64,000 nt of DNA from Croceimicrobium hydrocarbonivorans (GTDB taxonomy: Bacteria > Bacteroidota > Bacteroidia > Flavobacteriales > Schleiferiaceae). Position 1 is the stretch's first letter. Each line of letters opens with the position of its first letter. Of this stretch, positions 53,579-64,000 are shown one piece after another. Location of the stretch: NCBI RefSeq assembly GCF_014524565.1, contig NZ_CP060139.1, positions 62,001-126,000 of the forward strand. Reading direction: 5' to 3'. The translations under genes and the position numbers were made by a program. The notes beneath the pieces were generated by a model. The model was not told where the DNA came from. It was given only the letters and a program-made list of their open reading frames with translations, and searched no databases.

Positions 53579-54736
53579 ATGATCAAGCCCATTTTCACCA
53601 TAGCAATTGCAATTCTTTTTCTATGCAGTTGCCAAAAAGACCGCAGTAGCTCCGGTATATCAAGTTCCGGACCTAATTCATCCTCCCTCCTCCGCCCTGA
53701 ACTTCCCGAAAGCCCATTCAATTATGCTCAACAGAACTTGCCAAATTATCTCTTAGCAGGTCCGGTGGCCAATGCCGACAACACTCCCGCTGATAATGCC
53801 ATTAGCAATGCTGGTGCAACTTTAGGACGTGTATTATTTTATGATAAGCAAATGAGTGCCAATGCCACCATCGCTTGTGCCTCCTGTCATCAAATTGAGA
53901 ATGGTTTTAGTGATCCTGCTACCTTAAGCTTCGGTTTTGAGAATGGTGAAACAGGTCGTCATTCCATGTCCCTGGCCAATAGTCGTTTTTATGCTAATGG
54001 ACATTTCTTTTGGGATGAAAGAGCTAATAGTCTCGAAGAACAGGTATTAATGCCCATTCAAGATGGGGTAGAAATGGGGATGACCCTAGATAGTTTAATT
54101 GCCCGTATTGAAGGTCTCGATTACTATCCAGAGCTTTTTGTGGCGGCTTTTGGTAGCGATGAGATAAACTCTGACCGTATCAGTAAAGCCCTAGCCCAAT
54201 TTATCCGGAGCATGGTGAGCTTTAACAGCAAGTACGATTTGGGCTTGCAAGAGGTGAACAATCGAAACTTAGACTTCCCCAATTTTAGTGCAGAAGAGAA
54301 TTTAGGCAAAAGCCTCTTTTTCAGTCCAGCTATTGGTTGTGCTGCCTGCCATGGTACCGATGCTTTTATTGCTCCTGGACCACGTAATAATGGCCTGGAC
54401 CTTACTAATGCTGACGATCAGGGGATTGGTGGCCAGAATGGCAATCCCAATCAAGTAGGTCAGTTTAAGGTGGGTTCCTTAAAAAATATTGAATTAACCG
54501 CGCCCTATATGCACGATGGTCGCTTTAATACTTTAGAGGAGGTAATTGAACACTATAGCAGTGGTGTGCAAAACAACCCCAACCTTAGTATTCCCTTACG
54601 ATTACCAAATGGTGGCGTGCGTTTATTAAATCTAAGTGAGGCGGAAAAGAGTGCCTTGGTGGCCTTCCTAAAAACCTTAAGTGATCCGGTGATTTCTAAT
54701 GACGAGAAATTTAGTGATCCCTTCAGCAAATCTTAA
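53579..54736 (+). CDS. Di-haem cytochrome-c peroxidase (MauG/CcpA family), lipoprotein
   Basis: 385 residues. Lipoprotein signal with lipobox 'LFLCSC' (Cys ~18). Two haem c sites, 'IACASCHQIENGFSD' and 'IGCAACHGTDAFIAPG', each in its own domain, with 'GQFKVGSLKNIELTAPYMHDG' style MauG/CcpA sequence in the second. Bacterial di-haem peroxidases reduce hydrogen peroxide in the periplasm. Its end overlaps the stop of the convergent SdpI-like gene by 4 bp. Confidence 0.92.
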   Translation: MIKPIFTIAIAILFLCSCQKDRSSSGISSSGPNSSSLLRPELPESPFNYAQQNLPNYLLAGPVANADNTPADNAISNAGATLGRVLFYDKQMSANATIACASCHQIENGFSDPATLSFGFENGETGRHSMSLANSRFYANGHFFWDERANSLEEQVLMPIQDGVEMGMTLDSLIARIEGLDYYPELFVAAFGSDEINSDRISKALAQFIRSMVSFNSKYDLGLQEVNNRNLDFPNFSAEENLGKSLFFSPAIGCAACHGTDAFIAPGPRNNGLDLTNADDQGIGGQNGNPNQVGQFKVGSLKNIELTAPYMHDGRFNTLEEVIEHYSSGVQNNPNLSIPLRLPNGGVRLLNLSEAEKSALVAFLKTLSDPVISNDEKFSDPFSKS

Positions 54737-56591: not shown

Positions 56592-56598
56592 TACTCCA

Positions 56599-57639
56599 AT
56601 GAAAATTTGTTTCATCATGTATCCTTGGGAACGGGTAGATCCCGCTCAGGATTCCACCATCCGCATTATTCACGAATGTGTAAAACGCAAGCATGAGGTA
56701 GCCATTACCCATGCCGCCAATCTTACTATCCGCGATAGCGTAACCCTAAGTTTATGCAAGTGGATTAAGCCCGAAGAGAAAACCACCAATAGCATTAAGG
56801 CCTTTTATCGGGAGGTAAATTTCCAAACCGAAATGAGCCCTTTAAATAGCTTCGATGTGATCTTTATGCGCGATAATCCGCCATTAGACAATTTGGTGCT
56901 CAATTTCCTCGACTCCATTAAGGATGAAGTATTTATCATCAATAATGTGAATGGTTTACGGGAAGCCAACAATAAGATTTATACCGCCGCTTATCACGAT
57001 CCAGATCGGGCTTTGATTCCCACTACCCACGTATCTAAAAACTTGGATTATTTACTGCGTATTATTCAGGATTCGGAGCAGGAAAAAATGATCATGAAGC
57101 CTCTGGATGGCTTTGGTGGCAGTGGTGTAATTGTGATTGAGAAATCAGCGATGCACAATATTCGCTCCCTCCTCGATTTCTACATTCATCGCGAAAAAGG
57201 AAAATCGAATTATGTAATCCTTCAGGATTATATAGAAGGGGCTGAAGAAGGTGACGTGCGGGTAATCATGCTCAATGGTGAACCGATTGGGGCTTTACGC
57301 CGAAGACCAACTGCCGGAGACGTTCGTTCCAATATTTCAGCAGGTGGATCGGTGGAGAAATACCGACTCACCAAACAAGATAAGATCCTCTGCAAAAAGA
57401 TTGGTGAAAAGCTGGTTAAGGATGGTATTTATTATGCCGGATTGGATTTAATCAATGGCAAATTGATCGAAATCAATGTATTAAGCCCTGGAACCTTAAA
57501 GGACATCAATCGCCTTTATAAGGTTCGCTTACAGGAAAAAATAATCGATTATCTCGAGAAGGTGGTGGAAACCCGCCGTGAACTTAAAGACGATTTTCGT
57601 CCTGAGATTTTGTATGACGACGCAAGTTCTGAGTCCTGA
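56599..57639 (+). CDS. ATP-grasp ligase (glutathione synthetase/RimK-like)
   Basis: 346 residues from the ATG at 56599, just after the hydrolase stop; the frame is open to 56527, inside that gene. The GSH-synthetase-like fold shows 'MKICFIMYPWERVDPAQDST', 'VIFMRDNPPLDNLVLNFLDS', 'MIMKPLDGFGGSGVIVIEKS', 'ILQDYIEGAEEGDVRVIMLN' and the metal-binding 'LINGKLIEINVLSPGTLKDI'. The family activates a carboxylate as acyl phosphate and joins it to an amine or thiol. A normal glutathione pathway partner (gshA) is not here, and the next gene encodes amide-bond hydrolases, so the substrate may not be glutathione. Confidence 0.88.
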   Translation: MKICFIMYPWERVDPAQDSTIRIIHECVKRKHEVAITHAANLTIRDSVTLSLCKWIKPEEKTTNSIKAFYREVNFQTEMSPLNSFDVIFMRDNPPLDNLVLNFLDSIKDEVFIINNVNGLREANNKIYTAAYHDPDRALIPTTHVSKNLDYLLRIIQDSEQEKMIMKPLDGFGGSGVIVIEKSAMHNIRSLLDFYIHREKGKSNYVILQDYIEGAEEGDVRVIMLNGEPIGALRRRPTAGDVRSNISAGGSVEKYRLTKQDKILCKKIGEKLVKDGIYYAGLDLINGKLIEINVLSPGTLKDINRLYKVRLQEKIIDYLEKVVETRRELKDDFRPEILYDDASSES

Positions 57640-59623
57640 TGAGATCATTAGGCTAATTCGCAAAGGCGAGTGTTTTGATGCCCAAACCCGCGATGGTGGT
57701 TTAAAGATTAAAATTGAACGTTACGTTCCTTATGTCTGTACCGCCATTCACGCCGGTTCCAAACTGCGCGAATCTTTAAAAACTCGCATTGCCTTGGACG
57801 ATTATCAACGATGGTATGAGGAAGACCCCCATACCGACGCTTTTATATCGTCTATGCCCATCACTCTGGTAGGCTGTGATTCACGCTATGAGTATGATCT
57901 GAATCGTCGCCCGGTTGCTGCCATTTACGAAACAGCCTGGGGCAAAGATGTATGGAAGAAAAAACTCAGTCCCAGAGAGCAAAGTCAAAGTCTGCGCAAG
58001 CATCATAATTATTACCGCATTCTGAGGGCTTTGGTAGCCCGATTAGAAGAGCGTTTTGAAGCATGCATAGTCTTCGATATGCACTCCTATAACTGGAAAC
58101 GCTGGGATCGTGAGGTACCTTTATTTAACATTGGTACGGTTAGGGTTGATCAAGAACGCTTTGGTCCATATATCAATCATTGGCAGCAAGAATTGGAAAA
58201 GATTCAAGTACCCAATGAAAATAGTGTTTGCGCCATCAATGATGTGTTCGAAGGTTTAGGTTATAACCTGGAATTTCTAAGCACTAATTTTAGCAATACC
58301 CTGGTTTTAGCCACTGAGGTTAAAAAGGTCTACTGCGACGAATCCAATGGGATTGATTATCCGGATGTGATCCGCAATTTGCAAAGACACCTTAAAACTG
58401 CTATCCTTAATAGTGCCCGTCATTTTATTGATAAAGAAACATCTTATAATAGTCAGGCGCCCGGCGTACTCTTACATAATGGCATTGACCCTTCTTTGCT
58501 TAAAATTGACCGACAACTGCATAAGCTCCTACGTAATTTCGAGTTGCTGGCCTATGTAAACCCAATCAATATTGATACGGAGCGCAAGCGCTTTTTTAAG
58601 AAGAAGTATAATGAGGTGCCACATTTCCGCTATAGCCCCATTAAGATTCATCCCTTCGAGCTTAAACAATCCTTAAGTAATCTTAAGACTCAGGAAATTA
58701 GCGATGTATCCATTCGCTACCTCTATGAGGCGGTAATTAACAGTTACTTTGATAAGGTAGATCTGCTGGCCAGTTTAAACTCCAAGAAATTCCTTTATAA
58801 TTCCCTGAGATACTTTGGGCGCCCAAGTCATAATGACTTGCAAAACGCTCAGTACCTCTCCCTCCTACCCGCGATTCCTAGCGAACCTAAGCGCATGCCC
58901 TATTTAGAAATGGAGCAAGTGATTCAGCGCTTTGAAGAAGCCATGGATCGCTACGAAATGAAAGGAAAAATTGAATTGAGCAAGCGGGTTATCTCTCAGG
59001 TAATGGTGCTTAACTCCCGTAAAACGGTACTCATTCGTCCGGATGCCCATTTTACAGAAAGAGAATTAGGAGCACTCATTGAGCATGAATTGGGCGTACA
59101 TATGGTTACTACCCAAAACTCGAATCTTCAGGATCTTAAAATCTTCAATTTAGGTTTACCGGTAAATACCCGTACTCAAGAAGGTTTAGCGATTCTGGCT
59201 GAATTGCTCAGCGGAAATATCACGCTCAAGCGATTGAAGAAATTAGCCACTCGAGTAAAGGTGGTAGATATGATGTGCAATGGTGCCGATTTCAATCAAT
59301 GCTTCCGTTACCTGCATCAAGATGAGGGCATGAATCCAAACGATGCCTTTAGCCTTTGTACACGAATTTTCCGTGGCGGTGGTTTCACTAAAGATTACCT
59401 GTACCTTAGCGGCTTCGTTAAGATTTTACGGATGTACCTTAATGACATCGATCTTAGTCCTCTCCTAGTAGGAAAAACCTCTACCGACTTTTACGATACG
59501 CTGGTAGAAATGATCGATCGTGAAATCGTTAAACCACCCCTTTACAAGACTCATAGCTTTACTGCACCCAAATATGAACCGGGACATGGTTTATACGATT
59601 ATATATTGAGCGGATTGCAATAA
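57614..59623 (+). CDS. Fusion of N-formylglutamate amidohydrolase-like and DUF1704 metallopeptidase-like domains
   Basis: 669 residues from the ATG at 57614, inside the end of the ATP-grasp gene (26-bp overlap). Residues ~1-260 form the FGase-like zinc hydrolase: 'CTAIHAG' (His46), 'YEYDLNRRP' (95-98) and 'DMHSYNW' (155-158). Residues ~300-669 are DUF1704, the family annotated 'flavohemoglobin expression-modulating QEGLA motif': 'HELGVH' (491-496, H-E-x3-H) and 'TQEGLAILAE' (from 521). I recall DUF1704 as related to MATCAP, a tubulin carboxypeptidase using the same H-E-x3-H and a downstream Glu. Two hydrolases in one chain, translationally coupled to an amide-bond ligase, suggest one pathway. 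Confidence 0.85.
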   Translation: MTTQVLSPDEIIRLIRKGECFDAQTRDGGLKIKIERYVPYVCTAIHAGSKLRESLKTRIALDDYQRWYEEDPHTDAFISSMPITLVGCDSRYEYDLNRRPVAAIYETAWGKDVWKKKLSPREQSQSLRKHHNYYRILRALVARLEERFEACIVFDMHSYNWKRWDREVPLFNIGTVRVDQERFGPYINHWQQELEKIQVPNENSVCAINDVFEGLGYNLEFLSTNFSNTLVLATEVKKVYCDESNGIDYPDVIRNLQRHLKTAILNSARHFIDKETSYNSQAPGVLLHNGIDPSLLKIDRQLHKLLRNFELLAYVNPINIDTERKRFFKKKYNEVPHFRYSPIKIHPFELKQSLSNLKTQEISDVSIRYLYEAVINSYFDKVDLLASLNSKKFLYNSLRYFGRPSHNDLQNAQYLSLLPAIPSEPKRMPYLEMEQVIQRFEEAMDRYEMKGKIELSKRVISQVMVLNSRKTVLIRPDAHFTERELGALIEHELGVHMVTTQNSNLQDLKIFNLGLPVNTRTQEGLAILAELLSGNITLKRLKKLATRVKVVDMMCNGADFNQCFRYLHQDEGMNPNDAFSLCTRIFRGGGFTKDYLYLSGFVKILRMYLNDIDLSPLLVGKTSTDFYDTLVEMIDREIVKPPLYKTHSFTAPKYEPGHGLYDYILSGLQ

Positions 59624-59629
59624 AACACC

Positions 59630-60921: not shown

Positions 60922-61629
60922 ATGTGTAGCTTAAGCTATATCCCTCAAGCGGAAGGTTATATCCTTAGTCATAATCGAGATGAGCTTCCCAATCGCGAAA
61001 GTTCATCTCGTATCATTGATGAAGATGGCTTGAGGGGTAAATTTCATTTCCCCCAAGATTTAAAAGCCGGTGGTACTTGGATGGGTGCCCATGAATCAGG
61101 TTGGTCTGCCTGCCTGCTTAATGGCGGCAGTGTTCCCTATCTGCGCAAGCTACCTTATCGCCACAGCCGCGGTAAGGTATTAATTGACTTCCTGGAAGAT
61201 CCCAATATCGATGCCTTTCAGAGAATAGATTATCAGGGCGTAGAACCATTCACCCTTATTCTAAGCAAAGCCGGCGAGCTTTGGCAATTGGAACATAATC
61301 CGGATGGTGATATCTGGAATCGCCTTGACCCTACTCAATCTCATTTCTGGAGTAGCACCAAACTCTACCACTCCAATATCAGAGAGGCCCGAAAGTATCG
61401 CTTTGAGCAGTGGCTCCATCAGCAAAAGCTAGCTAAGGCTTCCGATCTGCGTCAATTTCATTTAGACCCGCAACGCAGTCCTCGCGAAGGCGGATTACTC
61501 TTGGGGCCCAATTTCCCCCTTAAAACCGTAAGCTTCTGCCAGGTAAATCATCAAGGTTCTGAAATTCAATTTCAATATGATTACCTATTGAAGGGATTAT
61601 CGGATCAAATTAATTGGCCAATCCGCTGA
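60922..61629 (+). CDS. NRDE/TANGO2-family protein
   Basis: 235 residues. The N-terminal Cys and 'ILSHNRDELPNRES' give the NRDE motif of this family. Bacterial and eukaryotic (TANGO2) members have the Ntn-hydrolase fold; their role is debated, and haem or lipid handling has been proposed. Only two bases separate it from ndh, so it is the last gene of this run. Confidence 0.88.
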   Translation: MCSLSYIPQAEGYILSHNRDELPNRESSSRIIDEDGLRGKFHFPQDLKAGGTWMGAHESGWSACLLNGGSVPYLRKLPYRHSRGKVLIDFLEDPNIDAFQRIDYQGVEPFTLILSKAGELWQLEHNPDGDIWNRLDPTQSHFWSSTKLYHSNIREARKYRFEQWLHQQKLAKASDLRQFHLDPQRSPREGGLLLGPNFPLKTVSFCQVNHQGSEIQFQYDYLLKGLSDQINWPIR

Positions 61630-62276: not shown

Positions 62277-62620
62277 ATCTGGAAAACACCAAAGCCCAAA
62301 TGCGCAAAGGCGTTTTGGAGCTCTGCATCCTAAACATGTTGCAAGAGCGTGATGCCTATGCCAACGAGATTATCGAAGAACTAAAAAAGGCCGAACTAAT
62401 AGTGGTAGAAGGAACCTTGTACCCCTTACTAACTCGCCTTAAAAACGGGGGTCTTCTCGCTTATCGCTGGGAAGAATCGACCAGCGGTCCGCCTCGGAAG
62501 TATTATAGCCTGACTGAATTGGGAAAATCTGCCCTCAAAGAATTACGCCTAACCTGGGAACGATTACAGGAGGCTGTCAATCACAGTATGAACGAAACCA
62601 ACGAAAATAAAACATCATGA
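62273..62620 (+). CDS. PadR-family transcriptional regulator
   Basis: 115 residues. Winged helix of the PadR type: 'MRKGVLELCILNMLQERDAY', 'VEGTLYPLLTRLKNGGLLAY', 'ESTSGPPRKYYSLTELGKSA', and a short C-terminal dimerisation helix (subfamily 2). Such regulators repress their own operon; the palindrome at 61736-61772 fits. Starts in the stop of the DUF4252 gene and ends in the start of the PspC gene, both 4-bp overlaps. Confidence 0.92.
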   Translation: MNLENTKAQMRKGVLELCILNMLQERDAYANEIIEELKKAELIVVEGTLYPLLTRLKNGGLLAYRWEESTSGPPRKYYSLTELGKSALKELRLTWERLQEAVNHSMNETNENKTS

Positions 62621-64000
62621 AAAAGACACTAAATATCAATTTAGGAGGCATGATCTTTCATATTGATGAAGATGCCTTCAATAAGCTGGAAGCCTACTTA
62701 GGTGCTCTGCGCCAGCAATTTATCCAAACCAATGGCGGTTCTGAAATCCTTAACGACGTTGAAACCCGCATGGCTGAGCTCTTCCGTGAAAGAACCAGTG
62801 AAAGTAAGCAGGTAATTAATATTCAGGATGTAGATGAAGTAATTGCTATTATGGGTCGCCCTGAGGATTATTTGGATGAAGAAATGGCCTCTAGTACTAA
62901 GTACACTTATGAAGAGAGCTATAGTAGTAATGGCAAGAAAATACACCGTGATGTAGATAATCGCATTGTTGGTGGTGTTGCCTCGGGTTTGGCAGCCTAT
63001 TTCAATATGGATGCCCTTTGGATTCGAATTCTATTTCTGGCTTCTTTCTTTGCTGGATTTGGATTTTTACTCTACCTGATTTTATGGGCCATTATTCCTG
63101 CCGCTCGCACCACCACCGAGAAATTGCAAATGCGGGGAAAGCCAGTTACCCTCAGCAATATTGAGAACTTCGTAAAAGAAGAAGGTGCCGCCGTTGGTGC
63201 AAGAATGTCTGAGCTGGGGGGAAAAGCACGTAATGTAGGTCGCAGTGGTCAGAGTCTATTTGCTCAACTCTTTAGTGGGATTTTTGAATTAATCCGACTA
63301 ATCCTAAAGTTCATCTTTAAAGCCATTGGCTTTGTCTTTTTAGGCATAGGAATCGTAATTCTCGCCACCCTGGCCATTACACTTTTCATTGGGATTGAAA
63401 TCAACGATTACCACTACAATATCAGTGAACTCAGTAATATTTTTCAACTCTTAGCCATAGACAGCAGCTCCTACAACAGCATGATGATTGGTGCTACCCT
63501 CTTGCTCTTAGGGCCCTTGTTATTGCTGGTTTATTACGGCTTGCGTATCGTATTCGGTATTGAACCTTTAAACTCCGGTGTTCGTCGTGGCTTAGCTTTA
63601 ACCTCTCTGGCTGGAGTTATCCTATTAGCCATTAGTGGCGTAAAAGTGGCCCATGAATTCGAGGATCATGCAACTCAAAGTCAGGAATACAATTTGGTGA
63701 CCAATAATGGTATGATCTATATGGAGGTGAACAAAGACAGCCTCTACGAACAGATGAGTGGTTATCGCAATGGAGATCAGTGGTATATCTACAATGGTAA
63801 AAGCTATTTCTCAGATATTGAATTTGATATCAAGCGATCTAATTCGGCCCATAGCTATTTGCTGAAAAAGGTAGATGGTCGCGGTTCCAGCCGAGATGAA
63901 GCTAGACTCAATGCCCGCAGTCCCGAGCACTTTTTGAAAGTAGATAGTGGCTTAGTGGTATCAGGCATCTATTACACCATCCCGGAAGGGAAATTATACC
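62617..64000 (+). CDS. PspC-domain membrane protein (3' end outside window)
   Basis: At least 461 residues, open to the window end, starting at the ATG in the PadR stop. Residues ~1-90 are a soluble N-terminal domain ('MKKTLNINLGGMIFHIDEDA', 'INIQDVDEVIAIMGRPEDYL') found before PspC in Bacteroidota. Residues ~110-170 are PspC ('VDNRIVGGVASGLAAYFNMD', 'LWAIIPAARTTTEKLQM'). Several more helices and a periplasmic beta-rich part follow. PadR-PspC pairs are linked to envelope stress. It is cut by the window edge. Confidence 0.88.
   Translation, partial: MKKTLNINLGGMIFHIDEDAFNKLEAYLGALRQQFIQTNGGSEILNDVETRMAELFRERTSESKQVINIQDVDEVIAIMGRPEDYLDEEMASSTKYTYEESYSSNGKKIHRDVDNRIVGGVASGLAAYFNMDALWIRILFLASFFAGFGFLLYLILWAIIPAARTTTEKLQMRGKPVTLSNIENFVKEEGAAVGARMSELGGKARNVGRSGQSLFAQLFSGIFELIRLILKFIFKAIGFVFLGIGIVILATLAITLFIGIEINDYHYNISELSNIFQLLAIDSSSYNSMMIGATLLLLGPLLLLVYYGLRIVFGIEPLNSGVRRGLALTSLAGVILLAISGVKVAHEFEDHATQSQEYNLVTNNGMIYMEVNKDSLYEQMSGYRNGDQWYIYNGKSYFSDIEFDIKRSNSAHSYLLKKVDGRGSSRDEARLNARSPEHFLKVDSGLVVSGIYYTIPEGKLY

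Follow-up and report, generated by a model that had tools for sequence, protein, structure and literature searches.

What is the use of a gene that encodes an ATP-grasp ligase, if it overlaps a gene for two joined amide-bond hydrolases? Such a pair lies in a stretch of 64,000 nucleotides of Croceimicrobium hydrocarbonivorans (contig NZ_CP060139.1, positions 62,001 to 126,000 of the forward strand), here called the window and numbered from its first letter; other loci and genomes are cited by L and G numbers. The second gene encodes a fusion of an FGase domain (N-formylglutamate amidohydrolase family, PF05013) to a DUF1704 domain (MATCAP family, PF08014). Ligase and double hydrolase keep together across distantly related bacteria, and it is probable that the one assembles and the other cleaves a common small peptide or peptide tail. 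Among the possible substrates, a small acidic, probably N-acylated peptide was our leading candidate, held tentatively. The features of the locus are:

56592-59629, + strand: cassette limits, from two congeners in which this DNA is lacking between the genes for serine hydrolase and NDH-2
56599-57639, + strand: ATP-grasp amide ligase, class A (GshB/RimK-like), 346 amino acids, from Pfam, fold and its own clade
57316-57348, + strand: ligase loop GDVRSNISAGG, from the class consensus and alignments to 1gsa and RimK
57614-57639, + strand: reading-frame overlap of ligase and fusion, 26 bp, from the sequence
57614-59623, + strand: FGase-DUF1704 fusion protein, 669 amino acids, from PF05013 and PF08014 matches and the structure model
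57614-58438, + strand: FGase domain, residues 1-275, from VIA Z against 2q7s and conservation
58487-59620, + strand: DUF1704/MATCAP carboxypeptidase-type domain, residues 292-669, from phmmer and VIA against MATCAP 7z5g
59084-59101, + strand: HELGVH, the HExxxH motif (H491, E492, H496), from the invariance of H, E and H
59174-59191, + strand: TQEGLA, containing E523, from the invariance of E and the alignment to MATCAP1/TMCP1 E316

The ligase is read from an ATG at 56599 to a stop ending at 57639 and the fusion from an ATG at 57614 to a stop ending at 59623; the mechanical open reading frames open at TTG 56527 and GTG 57578. The 26-bp overlap of the two genes, reported in an earlier note on this DNA, is exact. 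Gaps of 7 and 6 bp separate the cassette from the neighbouring genes.

The two genes behaved as one unit. A search with PF08014 matched 7 of 39 relatives and 19 of 395 phylum-wide Bacteroidota genomes, the window genome being counted in both. A hidden Markov model of the class A ligase matched 20 of the 395 genomes at E 1e-40; 18 of them were among the 19 genomes with DUF1704, and the two extra matches (G112, G230) group with canonical GshB. The ligase sits in the DUF1704 locus in all 18, the one genome without it (G222) has a stand-alone DUF1704 gene of clade C, and no class A or B ligase was seen without DUF1704 in the 395 genomes. DUF1704 was present in 47 of 398 Pseudomonadota genomes and the class A ligase (E 1e-75) in 7, all inside the 47, so that none of the 398 had a class A ligase without DUF1704. 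The hypergeometric values for this co-occurrence, 3e-30 (Bacteroidota) and 2e-7 (Pseudomonadota), ignore kinship.

Gene order was compared in 105 loci, composed of the best 80 of 560 confirmed named loci, 24 others and the window; owing to this choice the set leans to class A, and it holds at least four duplicates, judged by equal scores (L031/L083, L044/L051, L046/L097, L047/L050). A ligase-family match was present in 97 loci and the fused architecture in 86. One of the 97 matches (L103) is a RimK and not the partner ligase, and two of the eight loci without a match (L105, L113) are cut by contig ends. In 78 of 78 fused loci with a class A ligase, the ligase gene is upstream of the fusion in the same orientation and never more than 50 bp away from it. 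An overlap of ligase and fusion was counted in 61 of these, which is a maximum, since each frame was started at its earliest possible start codon. Mirror-tree comparison gave r 0.47 for ligase and DUF1704 distances (0 of 2000 permutations as high), 0.66 for FGase and DUF1704 (0 of 2000) and 0.27 for ligase and FGase (6 of 2000), on 73 loci that remained from 95 after near-copies were dropped; shared genome descent adds to the correlation.

The cassette was found in five of seven genomes of the window's genus. In congener G002 (L260), tblastn revealed the genes for MauG, SdpI, serine hydrolase, NDH-2, TANGO2, PadR and PspC complete and exactly the ligase and the fusion missing. Both were also missing in G004 (L259), where the serine hydrolase stands beside NDH-2 and MauG and TANGO2 had no tblastn match. 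Serine hydrolase and NDH-2 genes are about 60 bp apart in both congeners, and G006 carries the cassette without the window's neighbour genes. On this comparison, the cassette was gained, lost or moved as one piece and is a patchy two-gene unit. A conserved third partner gene that would name a substrate was not found among the 105 loci; the commonest neighbour clusters beyond the cassette occurred in 21, 12, 11 and 10 loci, mostly at varying positions, one cluster of 10 loci lying mostly two genes before DUF1704. Two loci have two tandem ligases of the same class, before (class A, L063:282-2359) or after (class B, L250:4928-7064) the hydrolase.

The double hydrolase was assigned with good agreement of sequence and fold. 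The earlier note had read a chain of an FGase-like hydrolase and DUF1704 with the motifs HAG, DLNR, DMHS, HELGVH and TQEGLA; all five are present in the translation, and both Pfam domains (PF05013, 61 bits, cut-off 28.9; PF08014, 313.7 bits, cut-off 27) and both folds (Z 25-26) agree with the chain. In the model (predicted local distance difference test score, pLDDT, 93.5; predicted template modelling score 0.90) the C-terminal half matched human MATCAP (7z5g) with a VIA Z of 26.1 and a root-mean-square deviation of 2.9 over 294 residues at 24% identity, and the N-terminal half matched the N-formylglutamate amidohydrolase 2q7s with a VIA Z of 25.1 and a deviation of 2.2 over 237 residues. Lower rows contained DUF885 proteins and M14 and M32 carboxypeptidases, for the FGase half also succinylglutamate desuccinylase (Z 11.7). 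With phmmer the DUF1704 half found MATCAP 7z5g at E 3e-7, HELGVH aligning to HEIGTH and TQEGLA to TEEGLA. In TMCP1, where the motif is likewise given as HExxxH, E281 and E316 mutants are reported to have strongly reduced activity (PMC10499314). E281 is the Glu of HExxxH and E316 the second Glu of TEEGLA, if residues are counted along the alignment from E281; their counterparts in the fusion are E492 and E523. The likeness to MATCAP/TMCP (KIAA0895L/KIAA0895) thus comprises the fold, HExxxH with the essential glutamates and a GxFxKDxxYLxG stretch, whereas the DUF1704 domain of the cassette is bacterial, fused to FGase and coupled to a ligase, with the 24% identity confined to the aligned part.

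Conservation of the DUF1704 metal ligands, on which the earlier note had made its proposal depend, was complete: in 179 of 179 full-length domains the H, E and H of HExxxH are invariant, and so are the Glu of QEGLA, the Glu seven residues on, and K, D and Y of GGGFTKDxxY. The 179 domains include repeated loci (L232/L053, L233/L065, L235/L105), and three shorter rows were dropped. The FGase motifs H46xG, D95xNR and D155xHS (HAG, DLNR, DMHS) are conserved in the fusion, and 123 of 129 active-type FGase domains contain all three by a loose pattern. Because of the invariance in DUF1704 and the FGase motifs, both hydrolase sites look alive, and the DUF1704 domain is predicted to be a HExxxH metallo-carboxypeptidase. 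The FGase domain shares fold and motifs with HutG but reached only 21.8 bits with the HutG equivalog TIGR02017 (cut-off 278.75); it is fused, and no hut gene was among the window neighbours scanned. The QEGLA model TIGR02421 was just reached by the fusion (339.3 bits, cut-off 338.65). In line with the earlier note, the annotated link of QEGLA proteins to flavohaemoglobin found no counterpart here, as the eight scanned window neighbours contained no globin domain, a scan that did not extend to a flavohaemoglobin profile search elsewhere. In locus L065 (9146-11155) the FGase-DUF1704 frame looks split between 9571 and 9836, by a sequencing error or a true split.

The ligase had been called GSH-synthetase-like, which stands as a family resemblance; the protein belongs to a clade of its own. 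Pfam scores were 172 bits for GSH-S_ATP (PF02955), 83 bits for GSH-S_N (PF02951) and 74 bits for RimK; a Rimk_N domain was not found in the Pfam scan and GSH-S_N was found in its place. The GshB equivalog TIGR01380 (229.5 bits, cut-off 299.05) and the RimK equivalog PRK10446 (50.9, cut-off 331) were both missed. Class A ligases form one separate clade (support 100/99) and class B ligases a clade of their own (98/97), the canonical GshB group (91/88) standing apart from class A, in a tree of 74 of 126 rows in which class B and RimK, both on long branches, join. In place of GExRGNLAAGG and TSPT of GshB, class A and B ligases have DxRSNxxAGG and SPG, which amounts to RimK-like loops on a GshB scaffold. 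The ligase model (pLDDT 89.3) was nearest to E. coli GshB 1gsa (Z 34.5), also the best sequence match, followed by RimK (Z 26.0) and ArgX (24.5), ArgX/LysX spanning Z 22.5-24.5. With RimK, ArgX and LysX the ligase shares the GDxRSN loop, SPG and the fold (Z 22.5-26), but it has a GshB-type N-terminal domain and RimK falls into another clade. GshB, RimK and ArgX/LysX act on acidic acceptors or peptides.

Two of three DUF1704 clades proved to be tied to such ligases. In a tree of 62 rows clades A, B and C were separated, a fused row from a Clostridiales bin (L128) lying outside A and B. Clade A has DUF1704 fused to a live FGase and a class A ligase upstream; in six of its loci (L027-L030, L035, L036) ligase, FGase and DUF1704 are separate genes, with a ligase-FGase spacing of about 1.2 kb in L035 and L036, and three unfused A-type DUF1704 genes (L196, L200, L201) stand alone. 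Clade B proteins begin with a domain of about 225 amino acids that matched no Pfam family in the five proteins tested. By hhalign it aligns with FGase along most of its length (probability 97.5%, E 6e-12), and 0 of 31 such domains keep all three FGase motifs; the fused FGase of clade B is thus, judged from its motifs, degenerate. The usual order in clade B is a separate live FGase before DUF1704 and a class B ligase after it, with an additional class A ligase in L032 and L033. The class B genes occur on plasmids of Aminobacter and Shinella and of a record labelled Roseateles, under the names N-formylglutamate amidohydrolase, QEGLA protein and glutathione synthetase/synthase, and profile matches revealed the same three genes on pSymB of S. 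meliloti.

Clade C, the stand-alone DUF1704, is low-scoring and makes up most of the loci drawn from Pseudomonadota (33 of 52 by score; 52 of 53 matches were taken as loci and one partial was left out). In this draw 37 of 52 loci lacked an adjoining A or B ligase, 33 of these being clade C by score. The adjacency assumed in the earlier note is therefore no family-wide feature: it is the rule for clades A and B, with 18 of 19 Bacteroidota genomes, and fails for C. No neighbour common to clade C loci was found, and two clade C proteins had no PDB match at E 0.1. One stand-alone gene (L227:6998-8278, Pseudoalteromonas sp. Bsw20308) lies near betIBA/BCCT betaine and arginine succinyltransferase genes, a possible osmotic context.

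FGase and AstE/ASPA enzymes both cut N-acyl acidic amino acids (N-acyl glutamate or aspartate), and in class B the one may take the place of the other. Sufficient flanking DNA was available for 38 class B loci: a separate FGase without AstE/ASPA was present in 27, AstE/ASPA without a separate FGase in 7, the two together in none and neither of them in 4; the tally omits the truncated loci L211, L213 and L251, and L226 and L228 are one species. The FGase was 1.4 and 2 kb away in L207 and L212, respectively. AstE/ASPA identity was given by Pfam in three of the seven (L041, L043, L205) and by a profile built from such proteins in the other four. In L205, which has no adjoining ligase, the AstE-type gene overlaps the start of DUF1704, the usual place of FGase; it follows the ligase in L040 and L043 and is convergent in L041, L245, L247 and L248. 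Two of the four loci devoid of both enzymes, L241 and L210, are from genomes that have another copy with FGase (L240, L212). Strict mutual exclusion became less likely in view of these four loci and of kinship. The replacement of FGase by an AstE/ASPA-type enzyme in the sister class points to a small N-acylated acidic substrate and is the best clue to the chemistry.

From these observations we favour, tentatively and with somewhat less than even confidence, the view that the two genes serve a cycle in which an amide bond of a small acidic, probably N-acylated peptide is made and broken again. The ATP-grasp enzyme would activate the carboxylate of an acceptor as acyl phosphate and join an amino acid to it; the DUF1704 domain would remove the C-terminal residue; and the FGase domain, or the AstE/ASPA-type alternative in the sister class, would deacylate the acidic amino acid that is left. 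The basis, read from sequence, is the retention of active-site residues in the three enzyme domains, joint inheritance and a ligase clade that is not canonical GshB. A ligase, a carboxypeptidase and an N-acyl hydrolase are the chemistries of N-acetylaspartylglutamate (NAAG) turnover, therefore the small N-acylated acidic peptide is held likeliest, with a protein tail as main rival. In the mammalian NAAG/beta-citrylglutamate cycle an acid ligase (RIMKLA/B), a carboxypeptidase (glutamate carboxypeptidase II) and an N-acyl amino-acid hydrolase (aspartoacylase) cooperate; RIMKLA and RIMKLB are described as ATP-grasp glutamate ligases acting on N-acetylaspartate or citrate (PMC3872778). The cassette differs in that its carboxypeptidase and, in class A, its acylase come from other families, i.e., two of the three roles.

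Several observations weigh against such a cycle. The making and cutting of an N-acyl dipeptide is deduced from the enzyme classes, and the MATCAP/TMCP enzymes that have been studied act on protein tails (PMC10499314). Fusions without an adjoining ligase exist (L102, L103, L108, L109, L126, L127, L222, L230), therefore the hydrolases do something without the ligase. In four of the 38 class B loci, FGase and AstE are both absent from the surroundings. The AstE loci fall into two tree places only, L205 and one Bacteroidota clade, thus the Fisher value for FGase versus AstE (2.6e-5, kinship ignored) overstates the evidence, the contrast being inflated by kinship. Two curated GshB models are exceeded narrowly by the ligase, NF009110 with 410.3 (cut-off 408) and PRK05246 with 276 (272). 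Finally, simultaneous action of ligase and hydrolases on one substrate would be futile without further control.

The strongest rival, which we consider unlikely but somewhat ahead of the remaining ones, is a reversible tagging of protein C-termini, in which amino acids, at least one and perhaps Glu, would be attached by the ligase and taken off again by DUF1704 and FGase. The earlier note had drawn the parallel to tubulin, where TTL re-adds and MATCAP, a DUF1704 relative, removes the terminal tyrosine. Its ligase/hydrolase system is upheld by the inherited unit and the two intact hydrolase sites, but the TTL parallel holds at superfamily level only, with GshB and RimK as the nearest folds. The cassette ligase is not of the TTL family: TTL was not among the six Pfam families that matched it at E 0.01 (GSH-S and other ATP-grasp models), and its absence among the fold matches listed excludes nothing. 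Tagging is supported by the homology of DUF1704 to MATCAP/TMCP, described as tubulin detyrosinating and deglutamylating enzymes (PMC10499314), and by the relation of the FGase fold to M14 carboxypeptidases. RimK, a near fold of the ligase, is described as adding Glu to RpsF; the RimABK modification of a ribosomal tail likewise combines an ATP-grasp enzyme with a protease on an acidic tail, but RimB is described as a retropepsin-like protease. RimK genes lie close to DUF1704 in L103 (6055-7483), L183 (3043-3948) and L199 (4745-5653), in the latter two divergent from the cassette, and, by score and tree only, in L170 (1726-2646); this is perhaps a link to tail glutamylation, or chance. The L103 RimK is accompanied by a RimB-type Zn_protease (PF05618). 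Against tagging stand the composition of the cassette, which has neither a third conserved gene nor a tail protein, the proximity of the ligase fold to GshB, a small-peptide enzyme, the exchange of FGase for AstE/ASPA-type enzymes, and the window genome, whose single GSH-S_ATP match is the cassette ligase with no second GSH-S/RimK-type match.

Expression data from Photobacterium damselae are also counted in favour of this rival. At 1% compared with 3% NaCl, strong up-regulation is reported for RS17020 (annotated GshB, 38.4-fold), RS17025 (QEGLA, 27.5-fold) and RimK (52-fold), and ribosomal protein genes also rise (PMC10308900). RS17020 and RS17025 are probably a class A pair, to judge from the gene order in Photobacterium sp. 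DA100 (L223). The data suggest co-expression and an osmotic or growth-rate link. The gene named GshB has the locus tag next to the QEGLA gene and is discussed there as a colonisation-linked GshB (PMC10308900); by the gene order in the other Photobacterium it is probably a cassette-type ligase instead.

An extension of protein tagging would be a bacterial C-terminal editing of a protein by a GshB-like writer and an eraser with two carboxypeptidase-type domains, from which eukaryotic MATCAP would descend, so forming a bacterial counterpart of tubulin (de)tyrosination and (de)glutamylation; we regard this as improbable, more so than tagging in general. A little more doubtful still is scavenging or repair, i.e., that the hydrolases break down an N-acyl peptide, either damaged or taken from outside, of which a product is used again by the ligase. 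The hydrolase fusions without adjoining ligase would fit, as would the patchy cassette, gained or lost as a unit, and the class A/B ligases never found without DUF1704 in the 395 Bacteroidota genomes, nor class A in the 398 Pseudomonadota. Against it, no transporter or catabolic gene recurs in most loci.

Far less credible is a carrier-protein route like that of LysX/ArgX with LysW, where the ligase would load an amino acid on a carrier tail for release by the hydrolases. ArgX/LysX are among the nearest ligase folds, but with 7 and 6 bp to the neighbours a carrier gene does not fit into the window cassette; other loci were surveyed for frames of at least 60 amino acids. The annotated function, a true glutathione synthetase with glutathione-degrading partners, is a shade less probable even than this. 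Sequence and fold are nearest to prokaryotic GshB, and the two curated models barely above their cut-offs speak for it. The ligase, however, is in the separate clade with different loop letters, and neither gshA family (PF04107, PF04262) had a match in the window genome (G000). PF04262 occurs together with a separate canonical GshB (GSH-S_ATP 229-262 bits) in six gammaproteobacterial genomes (G437-G442), of which five, all but G441, also have a class A ligase (180-198 bits); the stronger matches make up the GshB group of the tree. Beside this counter-evidence it has to be noted that gshA families do occur in other DUF1704 genomes, PF04107 in 9 of 39 and PF04262 in 7 of 39, a set that leaves out L055. 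Because of the missing gshA families in the window genome and the ligase tree, the cassette ligase is, on sequence grounds, hardly a glutathione synthetase, and glutathione synthesis was set aside. Phage defence was dismissed, since PADLOC yielded only one weak partial match per protein (E 0.012 and 0.0022) and PHROGs none.

Until recently no function was known for the DUF1704 domain; the human members have proved to be tubulin editors. A concrete, testable biochemistry is offered by the link of two out of three bacterial clades with a single kind of ligase and an N-acyl amino-acid hydrolase. This link also puts in doubt two names used in databases and in print, 'flavohemoglobin expression-modulating' for DUF1704 and 'glutathione synthetase' for its partner; the cassette genes are probably misnamed in databases. 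The open-licence PMC literature yielded no paper on the function of bacterial DUF1704 members, nothing on DUF1704 or N-formylglutamate amidohydrolase together with ATP-grasp, and nothing on N-formylglutamate amidohydrolase, glutathione synthetase and Sinorhizobium meliloti combined. A 2009 survey of ATP-grasp amidoligase operons by Iyer and co-workers may already mention the pairing of ligase and DUF1704.

Ahead of the fusion in Vibrio sp. HDW18 stands an annotated maoP (DUF413; L222:7545-7904); Photobacterium sp. DA100 has a frame of similar appearance ahead of its ligase (L223:6456-6860), and both loci have a divergent LysR-type gene. In the window, the cassette is preceded by a beta-lactamase-fold serine hydrolase gene (PF00144, 55281-56591) that ends 7 bp before the ligase and is retained without the cassette in G002 and G004. 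Farther upstream lies a gene for an MbnH/MauG-like di-haem enzyme (53579-54736; TIGR04039 225.8 bits, below the cut-off of 362.85), which belongs to a block kept in several congeners. A TANGO2-family protein (PF05742) is encoded at 60922-61629. The gene at 62617-63999, which extends past the window end and follows one for a PadR regulator, encodes a PspC-domain protein that includes a LiaF-like part.

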